Made by a program: the position numbers and the translations under genes
Shown: in pieces, positions 955-23,724 of the stretch
Position numbering within the stretch: the stretch's first letter is position 1
Layout of the letters: every line of letters starts with the position of its first letter
IMG/VR virus record: IMGVR_UViG_3300010354_000601
Location: 1 to 24,937 of that record
Source of the DNA: a virus
Length of the DNA: 24,937 nt
Strand: one strand, 5' to 3'
Notes under the pieces: generated by a model
What the model was told of the DNA's origin: nothing
The model's database searches: none
What the model saw: only the letters and a program-made list of their open reading frames with translations

Positions 955-1510
955 TTTTTTTTACGCGATGCGTAATATATTAGAGCTCGTAGAGCCTAAT
1001 AATAGAGCCGAGGTAATGGCTACTATAGAGCGAGTAATAAATAATATACACGCCGAAAATTTACGAGTATTAACCGCTATAAATAGCTGGGCCGAAAATA
1101 ATGGCATAGTAGAGCGCGTAGACCTAGACGCCGACCTCGAGAAAATACTAGAGAGCGTTAGCGAGACGCTGGGCGTACCTATCGCCTCTTTAATGGCGCC
1201 GACGCGTAAACGTCCGGTAGTAGAGGCTCGCCAATACTGTTACTGGTTATTACATAAATTACACCCTAGGCTATCGCTGAGCGCTACCGGTCTATTATTT
1301 AATAAAGACCACGCGACAGTTATACACGCCAGGCGCGAATTTATGGCCCTTATAGAAACGAGCCCAGACTACTACGGTAAGCTCGAGCTTATAATAAAAA
1401 ATTTACGTACTCGAGGTATAAATTTAGTTCCGGCGTTTGTAGATTTGTCAAACCAAAGGCAAAAAAAAATAAATGAAAGGAAAGCTAAACGAGACGCTAA
1501 GAGCTTGTAG
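944..1510 (+). CDS. Free-standing DnaA domain IV-like (DnaA-box-binding) protein
   Basis: 188 aa. Residues about 63-135 read like the C-terminal DNA-binding domain of DnaA: ILESVSETLGVPIASLMAPTR, then VVEARQYCYWLL, then the signature region FNKDHATVIHA at 119-129. In bacterial DnaA this region is typically GRDHTTVLHA, and it contacts the DnaA box. There is no AAA+ domain, no Walker A and no DnaA domain I; residues 1-60 are a separate helical segment. The protein could therefore bind DnaA-box-like sites at a phage origin or compete with host DnaA, but could not hydrolyse ATP. A run of nine A (1461-1469) lies just before the next gene's start. The gene overlaps its downstream neighbour by 38 nt. 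Confidence 0.8.
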   Translation: MANNFFYAMRNILELVEPNNRAEVMATIERVINNIHAENLRVLTAINSWAENNGIVERVDLDADLEKILESVSETLGVPIASLMAPTRKRPVVEARQYCYWLLHKLHPRLSLSATGLLFNKDHATVIHARREFMALIETSPDYYGKLELIIKNLRTRGINLVPAFVDLSNQRQKKINERKAKRDAKSL

Positions 1511-4079: not shown

Positions 4080-5501
4080 ATGCAATTATTACCCAGACAG
4101 CGCGACGCCTTAGTATATCTACGTAATAATAACCCAGCGCGTACTATACTTTACGGCGGCGCGGCCGGAGGCGGTAAAACGCGCCTAGGTTGTATCTGGC
4201 AAATACAGCGGCGCCTAAAATATCCTGGTACTAGGTCGCTTATCGGTCGTAATAAACTAGACACCTTAAAAAAGACGACTATAGCCTCGTTTTTTGAGGT
4301 AGCTAGAGACCTAAATTTACAAGCTAACGTACATTTTACTTATAACCAGCAAAGTAACACTATTAACTTTTTTAACGGTAGCCAAATAGTACTAGCCGAC
4401 CTAGCGTATAAGCCTAGCGACGCCGACTATAACGATTTAGGAGGGTTGGAAATTACCGACGCTTTTATCGACGAGGCCGCAGAGGTGCACGTAAAAGCGG
4501 TTAGCGTTATTAGTTCTAGGCTTCGGTATAAATTAAATTACTTTTGTGGCGTTTGCGCTGTCCCAGGTTTAGACGCCGGCGAAATAATCGAGACTAACGA
4601 CAAAGGTAAGCCTATAAAATGGCGGTGTAATAACTGTAAAGACGTAAATAGCGGCCTACTACCTAAGCTATTACTTACTAGTAACCCGGCTAAAAACTAT
4701 TTATATAATGAGTTTTACGATCCGTGGCGTAACGATGCGCTACCGCCTAATAAGGCTTTTATACAAGCGCTTAGCTCCGATAACATTTTACTACCAGAAG
4801 AGTACCTAAGTATACTAAACGAGCTACCAGAGGTAGAGCGTAAGCGTCTATTACTTGGCGATTGGGACTATGATACTAGCGACGACCGGCTATATTTATA
4901 TACTGAGCTATTACGAGCTTTCCGCGATAAAACCGACGAAAGCAAAGACTACTATATAACCGCAGATATAGCGCGATTAGGTAAAGACCGTACCGTAATA
5001 GCCCTCTGGGCCGGGTTGCACTTACAGCGTTTAGACATATATAACGGTTTACGTGTAAACGAGGTAGCCGAGGCTATAACTAAACTACGACTAGAGTATA
5101 ACGTACCGCTAAATAGAGTACTGGCCGACGAGGACGGCATAGGCGGCGGTGTCTGCGACCTCACGCGGTGCCGCGGTTTCGTTAACGGTAGTAAAGCTAT
5201 ACGACCGCACTACGCTAATTTAAAAGCCGACGCTTACTATAAGCTAGGCGAGTTAATAGACGCTAACGCTATTACCTTTAATAGTAAATATAAAGACCTA
5301 ATAACTAAAGAGCTCGAGCTAGTACGTCGTACTAACATAGGCCGAGACGGTAAGCTAACGGTATCGAGTAAAGACGACATAGCTAAAAAAGCCGGGGGTT
5401 TATCGCCGGACGTAGCCGACGCGGTGGCGATGCGCTCCTATTTTTTACTTAGTAGTAATACCGGCCGGTACGCTATAGCTGGTAACGCCGGAAAACTTTA
5501 A
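4080..5501 (+). CDS. terL: Terminase large subunit (packaging ATPase/nuclease)
   Basis: 473 aa, a full-length motor that packages DNA into proheads and cuts the concatemer. The ATPase domain shows Walker A G-G-A-A-G-G-G-K-T (26-34), Walker B F-I-D-E-A-A-E (129-135) and coupling motif L-L-T-S-N-P (198-203). The RNase H-like nuclease domain shows Asp296 in T-A-D-I-A, acidic residues at 350-352 (A-D-E-D-G) and Asp447 in S-P-D-V-A-D-A, the usual metal-binding set. Between Walker B and motif III lie two CxxC pairs (Cys156/159 and Cys183/186), a probable zinc ribbon. It is the last gene of the plus-strand operon; its stop overlaps the stop of the opposing lysis gene. The small-subunit candidate lies about 18 kb away on the other strand. 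Confidence 0.95.
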   Translation: MQLLPRQRDALVYLRNNNPARTILYGGAAGGGKTRLGCIWQIQRRLKYPGTRSLIGRNKLDTLKKTTIASFFEVARDLNLQANVHFTYNQQSNTINFFNGSQIVLADLAYKPSDADYNDLGGLEITDAFIDEAAEVHVKAVSVISSRLRYKLNYFCGVCAVPGLDAGEIIETNDKGKPIKWRCNNCKDVNSGLLPKLLLTSNPAKNYLYNEFYDPWRNDALPPNKAFIQALSSDNILLPEEYLSILNELPEVERKRLLLGDWDYDTSDDRLYLYTELLRAFRDKTDESKDYYITADIARLGKDRTVIALWAGLHLQRLDIYNGLRVNEVAEAITKLRLEYNVPLNRVLADEDGIGGGVCDLTRCRGFVNGSKAIRPHYANLKADAYYKLGELIDANAITFNSKYKDLITKELELVRRTNIGRDGKLTVSSKDDIAKKAGGLSPDVADAVAMRSYFLLSSNTGRYAIAGNAGKL

Positions 5502-12823: not shown

Positions 12824-14722
12824 TTATTTATCTAGTTTAGCCTGGTTTTCTATCTGGTTACGCGCGTCTAGGCTGTTAGCTACGTTACCAGCTAGTACGT
12901 ACGTCTGTATAGGTTGCGGTTGCGTCCCTTGGCCTTGTAAAAAACTTAAATTAAGACCACTAGGCGCGCTAGGCGTAGACATACTACCGCCGCCACCTAT
13001 CGAGCTACCGACAGTACTAGATCCACTAGGCCCGGCTGGGCTAGTATCGCCGCCACCGTCAAAAGTAGCCTTGTTTATTTTAACCAAATTAGCTACGCCG
13101 GTAGCCGCTACGACTGCGGCGCTCGCTATTTTTTGTACCATAGTTACGTTATCCGGAGCTCCAAAGGCCGAGACTATACCGCTAGCCATATTTATAACCG
13201 CCTGGGCTTTCTGTAGCTTTTTATTACGCTCGAAAGCTCTTTTAGCGCTAGCCTTATCGCCTTTAGCCGTAGCCTCGTTTAAGCTCATTAAAATATCTAC
13301 AGCTTGCCCGGCTAATTTTAGACCGGCTTGTATAGTGTCCATTTTAGCTTGGAGCTTTTCGGCCTCGGCTTTTTTAGTTGCCTCTAGTTCGTCTTTATCG
13401 TACTTAGTGTTAATTTCCTTTATCTTATCGCGTAGGCTTTTTTGGAGGTCGGCCTCTAACTGAGCGTTACCCTCAGCTATTAAAAATTTAGCGTCATAGC
13501 TAGCTATTAAGTCTTCTAAATCTTTATCGCGCCCGGCTTTCATTATTTCGCGAGCTAGCGCGTCTTGGGCGTCTTCTTTAGCTATCCTATCCTGGTTAGC
13601 TTTATAGGCCGCGGCCCTTGCGTCCTCTTCGGCTTTCTTTTTGTCTTCGAGCTCTTTAGCTAAACGGTCGGCCTCTTTTTTTGCGGCCTCTTCATTTTGC
13701 TTAGCTATTTTAGCGTTAGCCTCCGCGTTAGCCTTGGCCTTATCGTCTGCGGCTTTTTGGTCTATAGCTTTTATACTGAGCTGTAACCCGGCGTAGTCGT
13801 TTTCCATTGTGGCCAGCGCCTCCTGGTTTTTAGCTATCGCGTCGTTTAGTTCTTTCTCTTGTTCGGCTGGGTCTATAATAAGGCTACCTATCGCGTCGTT
13901 CATTTTGGCGCGTAGATCCCACTCTTGACCGAAAGCCTTACCTATTAAATCTATTGTACCTACTAGAGCTTGTAACGGTGCCGTTATAAACTGTAAAATA
14001 CCGTCTAAAATAGTACGGTTACGTTTGGCCGTCTCTATTTGCGTCTTAGCTTGCTCTTGTTGTATTAAAAGCTGGGCCTTTCGGTCTTGTATCGCTACGC
14101 CTAAAGCCTTTACTTTCATTTCCAGTATTTCGCGCTCGCTCTTACCTTGTAACTTTAGTATATTACTCTGTTTATCTATACTCTCGTACGCGGTCTTACT
14201 AGCGTTAGCTCTGGCCTCAGCGTTAGCGGCGGCTTGCCGTTCTAGTTCGTTAATACCGGTTAGCCCTTTCTCTATGCTCGGAAATAAACTAATAAGTTTA
14301 CTAAAGTTCATAGCTATAAGCGCTACAGCTCCGGCGATTAAAAAGAAAGGGTTAGTTAATAAGGCTTTACCGAGCGCTCCAAAGCCGGAGGCCATAGAGC
14401 TAATACCGTCCTTCACGCTTTTAAAATCTACGCCTTTTATATTACCGGCTACGCTTTTTAGCGTTTGGCCAAATCCTTCGAAATCTAGGCTTAAAAGTTG
14501 CTCGCCGGCTATCCTAGCGTTATTACCTAGGCTCTCGATAGCTGGGCCAGCGTTAGCGTTAACCGCCTCTTTTACCTCTTTCATTTTGTCGCGGAGCTCT
14601 CCGGCTTTCTGCGACAGTTTTATAAATTCGGCGCTACCTCGGTCTAGGTTAGCTAGTTGGTTTTCTATACCTTTTAACTCGGTCTTTATACCTTTGAGAC
14701 CGTCTACTATTTCCTCAGCCAT
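12824..14722 (-). CDS. Tail tape measure protein
   Basis: 632 aa, short for a tape measure. The N-terminus is a coiled coil (LKGIKTELKGIENQLANLDRG... AGELRDKMKEVKEAV). A membrane-like segment lies at about 120-140, with the L-L-T-N-P-F-F motif recurrent in Bacteroidetes-phage tape measures. It is followed by a very long Ala/Lys/Glu helix (about 250-470). The C-terminus has AKRAFERNKKLQKAQAVINMASGIVSAFGAP, a second hydrophobic stretch (IASAAVVAATGVANLVKI) and a Gly/Ser/Pro-rich tail. It sets tail length and aids DNA ejection; at about 0.15 nm per helical residue the tail would be near 95 nm (inference). An open frame of 235 codons on the opposite strand is a by-product of Ala/Lys/Glu codons. 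Confidence 0.85.
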   Translation of the reverse strand: MAEEIVDGLKGIKTELKGIENQLANLDRGSAEFIKLSQKAGELRDKMKEVKEAVNANAGPAIESLGNNARIAGEQLLSLDFEGFGQTLKSVAGNIKGVDFKSVKDGISSMASGFGALGKALLTNPFFLIAGAVALIAMNFSKLISLFPSIEKGLTGINELERQAAANAEARANASKTAYESIDKQSNILKLQGKSEREILEMKVKALGVAIQDRKAQLLIQQEQAKTQIETAKRNRTILDGILQFITAPLQALVGTIDLIGKAFGQEWDLRAKMNDAIGSLIIDPAEQEKELNDAIAKNQEALATMENDYAGLQLSIKAIDQKAADDKAKANAEANAKIAKQNEEAAKKEADRLAKELEDKKKAEEDARAAAYKANQDRIAKEDAQDALAREIMKAGRDKDLEDLIASYDAKFLIAEGNAQLEADLQKSLRDKIKEINTKYDKDELEATKKAEAEKLQAKMDTIQAGLKLAGQAVDILMSLNEATAKGDKASAKRAFERNKKLQKAQAVINMASGIVSAFGAPDNVTMVQKIASAAVVAATGVANLVKINKATFDGGGDTSPAGPSGSSTVGSSIGGGGSMSTPSAPSGLNLSFLQGQGTQPQPIQTYVLAGNVANSLDARNQIENQAKLDK

Positions 14723-20618: not shown

Positions 20619-22709
20619 TTATATATTTTTAATTACGAAATTAGCGCCGCGTAATGCGGCCGTATTACCGTTAGCTTGCATACTAAGACTATCGCCGGCG
20701 GCATAGTTAACCGCGACAGCTTGCGAGTAATAACCTATAGCTGAGCCGCTAGCTATTACTAGCGTCGGCGTCTGGTTTACTTGGTTTTTACGCAAGGTTA
20801 AAGTAATCGCTACCGGTGCTAATATATTATTTATTACGCCTATCGTAGTTACCTGGGCGCTATGTCCAAACACGTAACGCTGGTTATTATCGTTTCCACC
20901 TTGCCAGGCCGCTACGCCTGGGCACGTAAACCAGTTTAAAGTATTCATAGTTACAACATTATTACCACCGCAAAGCGTAACTTTATTAGCTAAATCTATA
21001 GCTGTCTGTTGCGCCGTACTTACCGGTTTATTTACGTCGCTAGTGTTATCTACGTTACCCAGTCCTACCTCGCTTTTACTCAAAGTACCGTTAACCCAAA
21101 GGCCGCTACTATCGTATTTTAGTACGTCGTTAGTACTCGGGCTAGGACATTGTACGCCGTGTAGCTCTGTTAGCTCGTAGCCGTTTTGGATCGCGTAAAG
21201 TACTCTACCGTTTACGTTTTGCGAGCGTGTAACGTGTCCTATAAAAACTACGTGGTTAGGCTCGGCCGGTGGCGTCGTCGTTACCTCGCCCGGTGTCGTA
21301 CTAAGCCAAAGTAAACTACCGGTATTATAAGCGCTGGTATCTAAATTACGTACCTCGCCGCTAGTTACCAGTAAACCGGTCGCGTCGTTTGGTATGTCTT
21401 CAAAAATAGCGCCCATAGTTTTAGAGCTCGTAGCCTCTGTAGTCGCGTCGGCCTTTAATACCTCGGGGTGTGTACCGCTAGAGCTCGTACTCTTTATATA
21501 GCATATAGTACCTTTAGTTAAAGTAGCGCCGGTTTTATTTATTACCTCTACTACCTCTTTTTTAGCCGCGTCTACTATACCGTCGTTATCGGTGTCGTAA
21601 GTACTTTTAAGCATATCGCCGTAACCGGTTAGGTCGGGCGTGTTTATTAAGTCGTTATAGTCGCCACTAAATAAAGTAGGCTTATTTAAAATCTGGTTAT
21701 CGCCGGTAGTGGCGGCCCAGTCGCTAGCTTGCTGTCGCGTTTGGTAGCCGGTGCCTACTAGTACCCAATAGCTCGGGTTAGTTACAGCTATACCGCTATT
21801 AGTTGCAATACACCGGTATATATTACCGTTATCGTGTACTACGTCGCCTACCTGGTACTCGTTATTAAGTACCGCCGAGCGTGCGCTATCTAGGTCGGGA
21901 GCTGTTAGCTGTAAACTAGGTAAGTTATTAAGGTCGTTATAATCGCCGCTAAAAGCTACCTCGCTAAGCGCTGAAACGTCGGCTTTATCCGTCTGTAAAT
22001 TGCTAACGTCTTCGAGCAAAGTAACAATAGTAGGGCAAGCGTCCACGTCGTTACAAGTAAAAGAGCTACCGCTAGGTAAAGTATACCAGCCTTTAAGGCC
22101 GATTTCATTGGTGCCATAGTAAAATAAGTTACCCGGAGCCTCTACGTCGTTATCTAGTGTAACGCTAGCGCCGTCTAAGTTTAAACTTTTGTCGTAGTGT
22201 ACCTGGCCGTACTGAGTACTACCAGGGCTTAAAGGTGCGAAATTATTAAAGCTAGCCGGAACGTCGCAAGCGTTCCAATTATAATCTAGGTTTAAAGTTA
22301 TAGTACCCTCTACGCCGGTAAGGTCGTTAGTTTTTTCGTCTATAAAAGCCTCTACGTTAATAGGTGTATTTAGTACTATGTCGGTACCAAAAAGTACACC
22401 GTTTTCTATAGTCGCTACCAGGTCGCCGAAAATCTGTAAACAGTCGCTTATTATTTCGCGCTGGTTTAAATTTTTGTCGGCCTTAGTTCTAGGTAGGTCG
22501 GCTATAGTAACCATAAAATTAAAAGTACGCGTACCCTCGCTATAAGCCATACCCTCCGGGGCCACGTGTAACCAGGGGTATACGTTACTTTTACTTATAT
22601 CCGCGTCGCTTATCTGGCCGTGGGTAAATCGCTGTAGTATATAGTGGCCGTCTGTAAAGTCTTTAAACCTTTGTATTAAGACGTTATACGTGTGGTTAGT
22701 ATTGCTCAT
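20619..22709 (-). CDS. Tail-terminator-like domain fused to a tail fibre / receptor-binding protein
   Basis: 696 aa. Residues 1 to about 150 (NVLIQRFKDFTDGHYILQRFTHGQISDADIS... YPWLHVAPEGM... RTFNFMVTIADLPRTK... LNQREIISDCLQIFGDLVATI) resemble the tail-terminator protein of Bacteroidetes siphoviruses. The rest is fibre: two F-S-G-D-Y-N-D-L motifs (about 252 and 346), a chitin-binding-like module at about 283-317 (QVGDVVHDNGNIYRC... NPSYWVLVG), the classic L-G-N-V-D-N-T-S-D-V-N-K-P motif at about 549-561, and a C-terminal beta-sandwich tip (TLNWFTCPG... VAITLTLRKN... YAAGDSLSMQANGN). The fibre part probably binds the host surface; the fusion ties a tail-top-type domain to an adhesin, or the N-terminal domain is a virion anchor. 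Confidence 0.75.
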   Translation of the reverse strand: MSNTNHTYNVLIQRFKDFTDGHYILQRFTHGQISDADISKSNVYPWLHVAPEGMAYSEGTRTFNFMVTIADLPRTKADKNLNQREIISDCLQIFGDLVATIENGVLFGTDIVLNTPINVEAFIDEKTNDLTGVEGTITLNLDYNWNACDVPASFNNFAPLSPGSTQYGQVHYDKSLNLDGASVTLDNDVEAPGNLFYYGTNEIGLKGWYTLPSGSSFTCNDVDACPTIVTLLEDVSNLQTDKADVSALSEVAFSGDYNDLNNLPSLQLTAPDLDSARSAVLNNEYQVGDVVHDNGNIYRCIATNSGIAVTNPSYWVLVGTGYQTRQQASDWAATTGDNQILNKPTLFSGDYNDLINTPDLTGYGDMLKSTYDTDNDGIVDAAKKEVVEVINKTGATLTKGTICYIKSTSSSGTHPEVLKADATTEATSSKTMGAIFEDIPNDATGLLVTSGEVRNLDTSAYNTGSLLWLSTTPGEVTTTPPAEPNHVVFIGHVTRSQNVNGRVLYAIQNGYELTELHGVQCPSPSTNDVLKYDSSGLWVNGTLSKSEVGLGNVDNTSDVNKPVSTAQQTAIDLANKVTLCGGNNVVTMNTLNWFTCPGVAAWQGGNDNNQRYVFGHSAQVTTIGVINNILAPVAITLTLRKNQVNQTPTLVIASGSAIGYYSQAVAVNYAAGDSLSMQANGNTAALRGANFVIKNI

Positions 22710-22724
22710 ATATTACTTAGTAGT

Positions 22725-23485
22725 TTAAAATACTTTTTTTGGTGTGTTTAAATCTTTATAATCTATTAAATAACTAGCGTGAGTAAATACCGCGGCCGCT
22801 GGTAGTCTTAGTATAGCTTCGTGTTTAGTTAAATCGCGGTCGCTTAGCTCTTCTAGGAGGTGTATAAATTTATAACGATCCGCTAGGGTATTGGTTGCCT
22901 CGTTTCCGTCTGTAGCGTTTCCGTCGTTAGCGTCTCTACCTCTGTTAAAATTTGCGTCGTCTGGCTGTTTAAATAGTCGAGGGTAGTGTTCATTAAATCG
23001 CTCCTTAATAGATAAAAAAAAACCATTACGCCGTTAACAGCCTCTACCGCTACTTGTCTAAATAGGTTAGCGTTAGCCGTATGTTTAAGCGCGTCGTACT
23101 CTTCGATTAAATACCGGTCGTTTAGCTCTGCGGTAATAGGTCGGTATAGTATGGACATTATAGAGGGTAGCGACTGCGGAAAGGTCTCTAGTAGTGTATT
23201 TATGTCTATATACTCGCTAAAGCTCATATATTCAAGGTTAGGGTGAAAGCCTACGCGTAAAGTAGTACCGTCTGGTTTTAATAGTTTTAGCTCTTTAAAT
23301 AATCGCTTACCGGTATTTTTTTTAAGGTCGTCGGCGTACCGGTTAATAATTGTAACCAGTTCGGGTACGCTGAGCTTTAAAATTTCCTCGCGCGTTTTAC
23401 CGGTTATAGCTTGCGCTTGTAGTACGTCGTTATCGCCGGCTTTTAAGACGTCTAGGTATTGGCCCAGGTTAATAGTTTTACTCAT
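22725..23485 (-). CDS. Tail assembly chaperone, long (frameshifted) form, 253 aa predicted
   Basis: The 200-aa frame at 22883-23485 is followed in the -1 frame by an open frame that runs from a stop at 23034 to TAA at 22725-22727. It has no ATG, GTG or TTG of its own. It encodes LSIKERFNEHYPRLFK, a Gly/Asp/Asn-rich linker, then a well-formed domain DRYKFIHLLEELSDRDLTKH... AVFTHASYLIDYKDLN. A -1 slip at the T run (forward A9, 23014-23022), in the context GTT TTT TTT TAT (zero frame), joins residue 157 of the upstream frame to 96 further codons. A short form and a frameshifted long form are the hallmark of tail chaperones such as lambda gpG/gpGT. The extension fills the otherwise empty gap 22725-22882. 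A homopolymer sequencing error is the alternative. Confidence 0.6.
22883..23485 (-). CDS. Tail assembly chaperone-like protein, short (unshifted) form
   Basis: 200 aa when read without frameshift. The N-terminus (MSKTINLGQYLDVLKAGDNDVLQAQAITGKTREEILKLSVPELVTIINRY) and the middle (LKPDGTTLRVGFHPNLEYMSFSEYIDINTLL... MSILYRPI) are of the helical kind seen in small tail chaperones. Residues 153-160 (GVMVFFYLL) cover the T9 tract. The zero-frame tail (residues 158-200) is Thr/Glu/Gln-rich and low in complexity. The start overlaps the 80-aa gene upstream as ATGA. Chaperones normally bind the tape measure; here the tape measure gene is about 8 kb downstream, so the assignment rests on the frameshift layout and fold impression. 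Confidence 0.6.
   Translation of the reverse strand: MSKTINLGQYLDVLKAGDNDVLQAQAITGKTREEILKLSVPELVTIINRYADDLKKNTGKRLFKELKLLKPDGTTLRVGFHPNLEYMSFSEYIDINTLLETFPQSLPSIMSILYRPITAELNDRYLIEEYDALKHTANANLFRQVAVEAVNGVMVFFYLLRSDLMNTTLDYLNSQTTQILTEVETLTTETLQTETRQPIP
23014..23022 (-). promoter_or_regulatory. T9 slippery site for probable -1 frameshift
   Basis: Nine consecutive T on the coding (minus) strand. The zero-frame codons GTT TTT TTT TAT place a T-TTT-TTT heptamer (23015-23021) in the X-XXY-YYZ phase needed for tandem -1 slippage. It lies within the window where both frames are open (22886-23033), and no other phase-correct heptamer was found there. A stretch AAGGAG lies shortly downstream, just before an in-frame ATG (22991-22993). 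A T9 run could equally give transcriptional slippage. Confidence 0.55.
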
Positions 23486-23724
23486 ACTTTATAATTTTGG
23501 TTATAGTAGTTATCTACGCTAATATCTATAGCCCTTTCGCGCGCGTACATATAGCCGTTATTTTGTCCGTGGCTATAAGCGTTTTTTATATCTCGCTCGA
23601 ATTTAGCGCGCGCCTCCGCTATTAAATTATTATACCACTCTTCAAGCTCAGAGCCCGGTCTAAATTCTATTTTACTAGTAAACTCTTTTATAAACCACTC
23701 AAAAGTATTTTGTTTTTTACTCAT
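23482..23724 (-). CDS. Hypothetical protein, 80 aa
   Basis: A small, charged, mostly helical protein (EWFIKEFTSKIEFRPGSELEEWYNNLIAEARAKFERDIKNAYSHGQNNGY) ending in a Tyr/Asn-rich tail (ISVDNYYNQNYKV). The pattern of a central A-x-x-x-x-x-x-I-x-x-A-Y helix and a terminal Y-Y-N-x-x-Y is one I associate with small unknown proteins of Bacteroidetes phages. It is coupled to the chaperone gene by an ATGA overlap and starts 4 nt after the terminase-small-like gene. No function assigned. Confidence 0.55.
   Translation of the reverse strand: MSKKQNTFEWFIKEFTSKIEFRPGSELEEWYNNLIAEARAKFERDIKNAYSHGQNNGYMYARERAIDISVDNYYNQNYKV

Follow-up and report, generated by a model that had tools for sequence, protein, structure and literature searches.

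Background

The textbook example of conserved ribosomal frameshifting in phages is provided by the frameshifted tail assembly chaperones; in phage lambda the G and GT products arise by a ribosomal slip at a G_GGA_AAG site. The slip at lambda G/GT is a ribosomal mechanism (PMC5009743), and the locus combines overlapping frames in the -1 relation, a short and a C-terminally extended product, and a position among the tail genes, next to the tape measure gene. The gpE/gpE+E' pair of phage P2 (PF10109; phrog_103 and phrog_166) likewise depends on a T-rich -1 site, P2-type sites being of the form X_XXY_YYZ and made up of six or seven T's or of other letters. Of eleven P2 gpE/E' relatives, eight carried TTTTTTG; the remaining three had TTTTTTC, AAATTTT or GGGAAAG, and a run of nine T's was found in none of the eleven.

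Overlapping frames can also be fused by RNA polymerase. Insertions of one base in A/T runs climb steeply with run length, the RNA:DNA hybrid being 9 bp long (PMC5574713), and the E. coli RNA polymerase slips at runs of at least seven T's with a bias toward poly(T) (PMC6260861). In Shigella the longer MxiE protein is produced via insertion of a U at a run of U's (PMC1088944), and in both mxiE and spa13 it is a base inserted by RNA polymerase at a homopolymer that fuses ORF a to ORF b (PMC1088944, PMC5009743). Insertion sequence (IS) elements with A/T runs and the Citrobacter tssM1 gene (A11) display homopolymer slippage without ribosomal stimulators (PMC1088944, PMC4256274). In the case of dnaX, E. 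coli uses ribosomal frameshifting and Thermus transcriptional slippage (PMC1088944).

Here we describe a two-frame gene from a virus record of 24937 b, analysed over its whole length and hereafter called the window, whose two products are probably generated by slippage of RNA polymerase on a run of nine T's.

Arrangement of the two-frame gene

The zero frame of the gene (22883..23485, minus strand) codes for a protein of 200 aa, the "G-like" short product, which is homologous to phrog_32199. Overlapping it in the -1 register is an open frame at 22725-23033 with 102 sense codons, among which ATG, GTG and TTG are all absent; the coordinates and codon content given for this startless frame in a preliminary description of the sequence were confirmed. 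Within the overlap the minus strand carries G-TTTTTTTTT-A at 23014-23022, a T9 run read in the zero frame as GTT TTT TTT TAT, and this contains T_TTT_TTT in the zero-frame phase, as had been noted. A slip after the second Phe codon would give a 253-aa fusion that has residues 1-157 in common with the short product and continues for 96 residues into the "T-like" extension (22725..23015 including the stop, minus strand), which lacks a start of its own and is conserved in the family alignments; the predicted long form includes the stretch ...VNGVMVFFLSIK... The earlier figures of 200 and 253 aa with 157 shared residues were all reproduced. Past the run both frames remain open for 131 nt (22883..23013, minus strand).

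Gene neighborhood

On the same strand the gene order comprises a small-terminase-like gene, an 80-aa gene with no clear family match (23482..23724), the two-frame gene, a 696-aa gene with a tail-fibre-like part (20619..22709), an HK97-gp10-like gene and further tail genes; farther along lie a likely tape-measure gene and then genes for the protease, capsid and portal. Relatives of the 696-aa gene follow the two-frame gene in 230 of the 369 loci compared below, and in the relatives terminase genes lie upstream and fibre- or neck-like genes downstream. Inspected by eye, the 696-aa gene resembles a short tail protein fused to a fibre-like part, and the former, again judged by eye, has its counterpart in a free-standing 138-aa protein, gp41, of the Nonlabens phage.

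The likely tape-measure protein (12824..14722, minus strand) matches phrog_24676 and phrog_339, tail length tape measure, with a PHROG match E of 3e-6. In contrast to lambda, where the G/GT gene directly adjoins the tape measure gene, the two genes are non-adjacent here, the tape-measure gene lying on the same strand some 8 kb further downstream, in line with the earlier remark that a tape measure gene was far away.

Two further features of the window were observed. The large terminase (4080-5501, plus strand) is on the opposite strand from the two-frame gene; in relatives where a large terminase was found, it is on the same strand and upstream of the two-frame gene in 54 of 71. There is also an A9 run (1461-1469, plus strand) close to where a DnaA-like ORF (944-1510) ends and immediately ahead of the ATG that opens the following ORF (1473-2051); the two ORFs overlap, and the frame of the second is closed right before its ATG, so that no fusion like that at the T9 run is evident.

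Predicted structure and family affinities of the products

The AF2 model of the 200-aa product has a mean pLDDT of 92.9 and predicts with high confidence a small alpha/beta domain with a long helix at its end that contains the slip site. In the extension this helix is predicted to continue, followed by a loose linker and a compact helical C-terminal part (block pLDDT 89-94). Comparison with folds in the PDB recovered no solved structure resembling either the zero-frame part or the extension, and the significant matches among viral predicted structures were uncharacterised or unnamed phage proteins, including that of Nonlabens phage P12024S.

At the sequence level phrog_32199 is matched by all 96 of 96 family members. 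PF10109 (Phage_TAC_7; P2 gpE, 41, 14) is matched weakly by 8/96, with a best E of 2.7e-4, below the curated cut-off, and phrog_166, which P2 gpE matches also, by 6/96 (best 8.7e-8); a profile-profile comparison of the family with the P2 gpE relatives by hhalign gave no match. The weak Phage_TAC_7 match of a sublineage supports a tail assembly chaperone without proving it. The organization, with a short ORF and a startless -1 extension joined in the overlap, is that of the G/GT type. Taken with the tail-gene neighborhood and the weak Pfam and PHROG matches, this plan suggests that the gene probably codes for a tail assembly chaperone. The likeness to lambda gpG/gpGT drawn in the preliminary description is one of two-product plan rather than of clear homology.

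Conservation of the -1 arrangement

As the preliminary description had suggested, we compared relatives for the T-run and for both frames. Eight scans of IMG/VR and one of bacterial genomes recovered about 500 related loci; five of the IMG/VR scans were run with queries devoid of the slip site and hence cannot favour it. The 506 loci considered here are those in which hidden Markov models for the part preceding the site and for the -1 part both matched, and counts of the site itself are based on 369 non-identical sites, obtained by collapsing contigs fetched twice according to an identical 300-nt context. With both parts located in this way, the -1 relation is kept in 504 of the 506 loci. A fused frame, or an extension with its own start, had been named beforehand as contrary to a programmed fusion, and both are almost everywhere missing: a single continuous frame is found only in L088 (T10) and L391 (T11), and just 8/369 extensions have an ATG among their first 30 codons. 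The conserved -1 residues begin right at the run, ahead of any start codon. L088 and L391 are either natural fused variants or homopolymer errors of metagenome assemblies.

The substitution pattern in the overlap points the same way. Between relatives, zero-frame positions 1, 2 and 3 of the overlap have accumulated 589, 1000 and 851 substitutions; counted as -1 positions 1, 2 and 3, to which the same sites contribute as positions 2, 3 and 1, these are 851, 589 and 1000, versus 686, 371 and 1759 where the -1 frame alone is read. This pattern supports constraint from both frames and the dual coding that had been suspected for part of the region. As nearly all related loci retain the -1 relation, we conclude from comparative sequence evidence that the gene is a real programmed frameshift with two products and not a chance overlap, which agrees with the fusion first proposed.

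Members of the family include the Nonlabens phages P12024S and P12024L, and in the named isolate P12024S the site could be read directly as T9 with a -1 extension. As a member of the same phrog_32199 family with the same arrangement, P12024S (Inhavirus) has the two parts annotated as two hypothetical proteins, gp38 and gp39, with the frameshift unrecorded. Searches of named phages with tblastn gave no match with the protein from the window, and with six distant family members as queries recovered the Nonlabens phages only. The hosts are known for the Nonlabens isolates; the scan of bacterial genomes recovered just three contigs from metagenome-assembled genomes (MAGs), and for this group of aquatic phages in general the hosts are probably Bacteroidetes. 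Two family contigs (L188, L189) lie in MAGs labelled Euryarchaeota and Pseudooceanicola, probably as a result of binning contamination.

Run length and codon phase at the slip site

Of the 369 non-identical sites, 342 carry T9, 25 carry T10, and one each carries T12 and T7, with T8 in none; elsewhere on the same strand of the same 2.3 Mb, runs of T7, T8 and T9 number 240, 69 and 36, respectively. T_TTT_TTT is in phase at all sites. The run as a whole occupies different codon phases: it is in phase 1 in most, in phase 0 in 63 and in phase 2 in 14. In phase 1 a single T precedes the core heptamer and, with one exception, one or two follow it; in phase 0 two T's precede the core and mostly none follow; in phase 2, apart from L190, no T precedes it and two follow.

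This distribution is mirrored in the choice of flanking codons. After GTT, CTT or ATT, the next codon beyond the core begins with T in every case, encoding Tyr, Ser, Trp, Cys, Leu or Phe, and after TTT it is usually GTN, GCT, CTN or ATC, i.e. Val, Ala, CTN-Leu or Ile. Since these latter residues are allowed where nine T's are already present, the type of residue in the protein is not the constraint. On a tree of 166 representatives built without the slip site, the run moved between phases 0, 1 and 2 with at least 17 changes; for the codons that flank the core, the minimum is 41 changes on its upstream side and 66 on its downstream side. These counts are subject to many weakly supported branches and possible misplacement of long ones by FastTree. 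In 8 independent pairs the loss of a T from one flank of the core was offset on the opposite flank, with 0 against and 1 tie (sign test p 0.008), and when the downstream codons were shuffled among the 166 representatives on average 32 sites fell below nine T's versus 1 observed.

A further indication comes from the end of the second Phe codon, where T and C are silent in both frames: T is present in 166/166 sites and 80/80 representatives, whereas C accounts for 36% at the remaining positions of this doubly silent kind in the representatives. A C here would still leave the ribosomal heptamer T_TTT_TTC. The compensation is nevertheless the cleaner evidence, because T_TTT_TTT is intact throughout and a ribosomal model could prefer UUU over UUC. 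A synonymous-resampling null that keeps the zero-frame residues gave a probability of 0.91 for at least nine T's given the core; once the heptamer is required, this null is uninformative because the zero-frame residues already encode T's, and we therefore relied on phase drift, compensation and the doubly silent positions. Judged from these patterns, what is selected is a run length of nine T's or more, irrespective of the codon phase.

Nine is not an absolute requirement, the sole T7 site being that of L190 (1761-1767, CAT TTT TTT ATA), a contig binned as a Muriicola MAG. L190 keeps the -1 arrangement, and a plain heptamer may suffice in its lineage. There are also several T10 clades (L306, L369 and relatives) that retain the -1 relation, implying that the frame was re-set around the longer run.

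Mechanism of the frameshift

These observations lead us to favour slippage of RNA polymerase on a length-selected U9 as the main mechanism, with a probability of roughly 0.7. Most transcripts would carry U9 and give the 200-aa short form. In a fraction of them, the elongating polymerase would slip back by one base while the RNA:DNA hybrid consists of rU:dA only and insert one extra U, and ordinary ribosomes would read the resulting U10 mRNA directly into the -1 frame to make the 253-aa form. Because a single extra U shifts reading by the ribosome into the -1 frame, the outcome would be exactly the same fusion as from a -1 ribosomal slip. We infer that the extra base arises at transcription, and likewise infer the ratio of short and long forms. 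By analogy with lambda gpGT, the additional C-terminal helical domain of the long form would serve as the "T" part and contact the major tail protein. Polymerase slippage fits better because nine or more T's are selected whatever the codon phase and the RNA shows no sign of a stimulatory structure. The locus has two features expected of it: the ORF overlap contains an A/T homopolymer reaching the required length of about 8-9 or more, and it is the run length rather than the codon phase that is conserved, with the T7 of L190 as the one exception. Simple folds of 60-nt windows starting 6 and 14 nt past the run in 166 sequences gave no folding signal (mean z 0.06 and 0.00). The polymerase of the host, probably a flavobacterium, would have to be prone to such slippage.

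The alternative closest to the described tail genes is a classic programmed -1 ribosomal frameshift, in which two Phe-tRNAs would slip in tandem on U_UUU_UUU, as at lambda G/GT or P2 E/E', with the extra T's being incidental. That mechanism is established for tail chaperones (PMC5009743), P2 gpE/E' uses a T-rich site with the same frame direction, and a heptamer conforming to X_XXY_YYZ lies in phase in 369/369 sites, so that ribosomal slippage is possible everywhere and could contribute; the missing C at the doubly silent position could likewise reflect UUU being shiftier than UUC. Yet the ribosome needs only the seven letters T_TTT_TTT and has no obvious gain from two more T's that switch sides. 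At least nine T's are kept through three codon phases and many flanking codons; instead of a kept heptamer with free flanks and a free Z, we find flanks that compensate to nine T's. Moreover, T8 is absent although the heptamer would survive in it, and none of the 369 sites has C, G or A as Z, whereas P2-type sites are TTTTTTG or TTTTTTC. A stem-loop stimulator was also missing in the simple folds, though not every ribosomal site has a stimulatory structure. Ribosomal slippage on T_TTT_TTT, the mechanism put forward in the preliminary description, is thus probably not the main one, and as a full account of the locus we consider it unlikely. A possible, if doubtful, reading that overlaps with polymerase slippage is that both act, the polymerase setting most of the ratio and ribosomes also slipping on the same U-run: the heptamer is unavoidable within T9, so each site bears both signals, while the sequences do not require a ribosomal part and stimulators are not seen downstream.

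Two further explanations fare much worse. If switching between T9 and T10 in the phage population decided the product, as in phase variation, many fused or other-frame copies should be left behind; L088 and L391 could be taken as such, yet 504/506 loci are in the -1 state and the T10 clades re-set the frame and did not fuse, which makes such switching very improbable. Homopolymers are error-prone, and in the Nonlabens phages the extension is annotated as an ORF of its own, which could suggest a single gene with a wrong homopolymer length, a decayed gene or a separate gene. These readings were rejected as practically untenable: the same -1 arrangement recurs in 504 relatives drawn from many different samples, and an isolate has it as well; evolution is constrained in each of the two frames; and conserved residues of the -1 frame start at the run itself, upstream of any start codon.

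Conclusions

Polymerase slippage at this gene would differ from the systems outlined above in several respects. Relative to lambda and the P2-type sites, the signal here is a run of at least T9 selected by its length. Shigella mxiE and spa13 are bacterial secretion genes of a narrow lineage, and the IS elements and Citrobacter tssM1 represent transposase or T6SS genes without a role in phage tails, whereas the present gene is a phage assembly gene found across hundreds of phages. The literature searched, the coverage of which was incomplete, yielded no description of a tail chaperone that uses transcriptional slippage. It appears reasonably probable that in these aquatic phages, probably of Bacteroidetes, RNA-polymerase slippage on U9-U10 sets the tail-chaperone ratio as a transcriptional replacement for lambda-type ribosomal frameshifting, perhaps the first such case in a phage tail gene. 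Should the transcriptional model hold, a higher slippage rate would be expected in the T10 clades.

Annotation currently divides the two-frame gene into two separate entries, as seen with the Nonlabens phages, and, if our reading is true, predictors that consider only the ribosome search for the wrong signal. The signature recovered here, a fixed minimum run length combined with a drifting codon phase, offers a simple comparative test of mechanism for other overlapping gene pairs. Slippage by the polymerase, if true, would also mean that what is conserved in these phages is the protein pair and its ratio and not the ribosomal mechanism, in parallel to dnaX.
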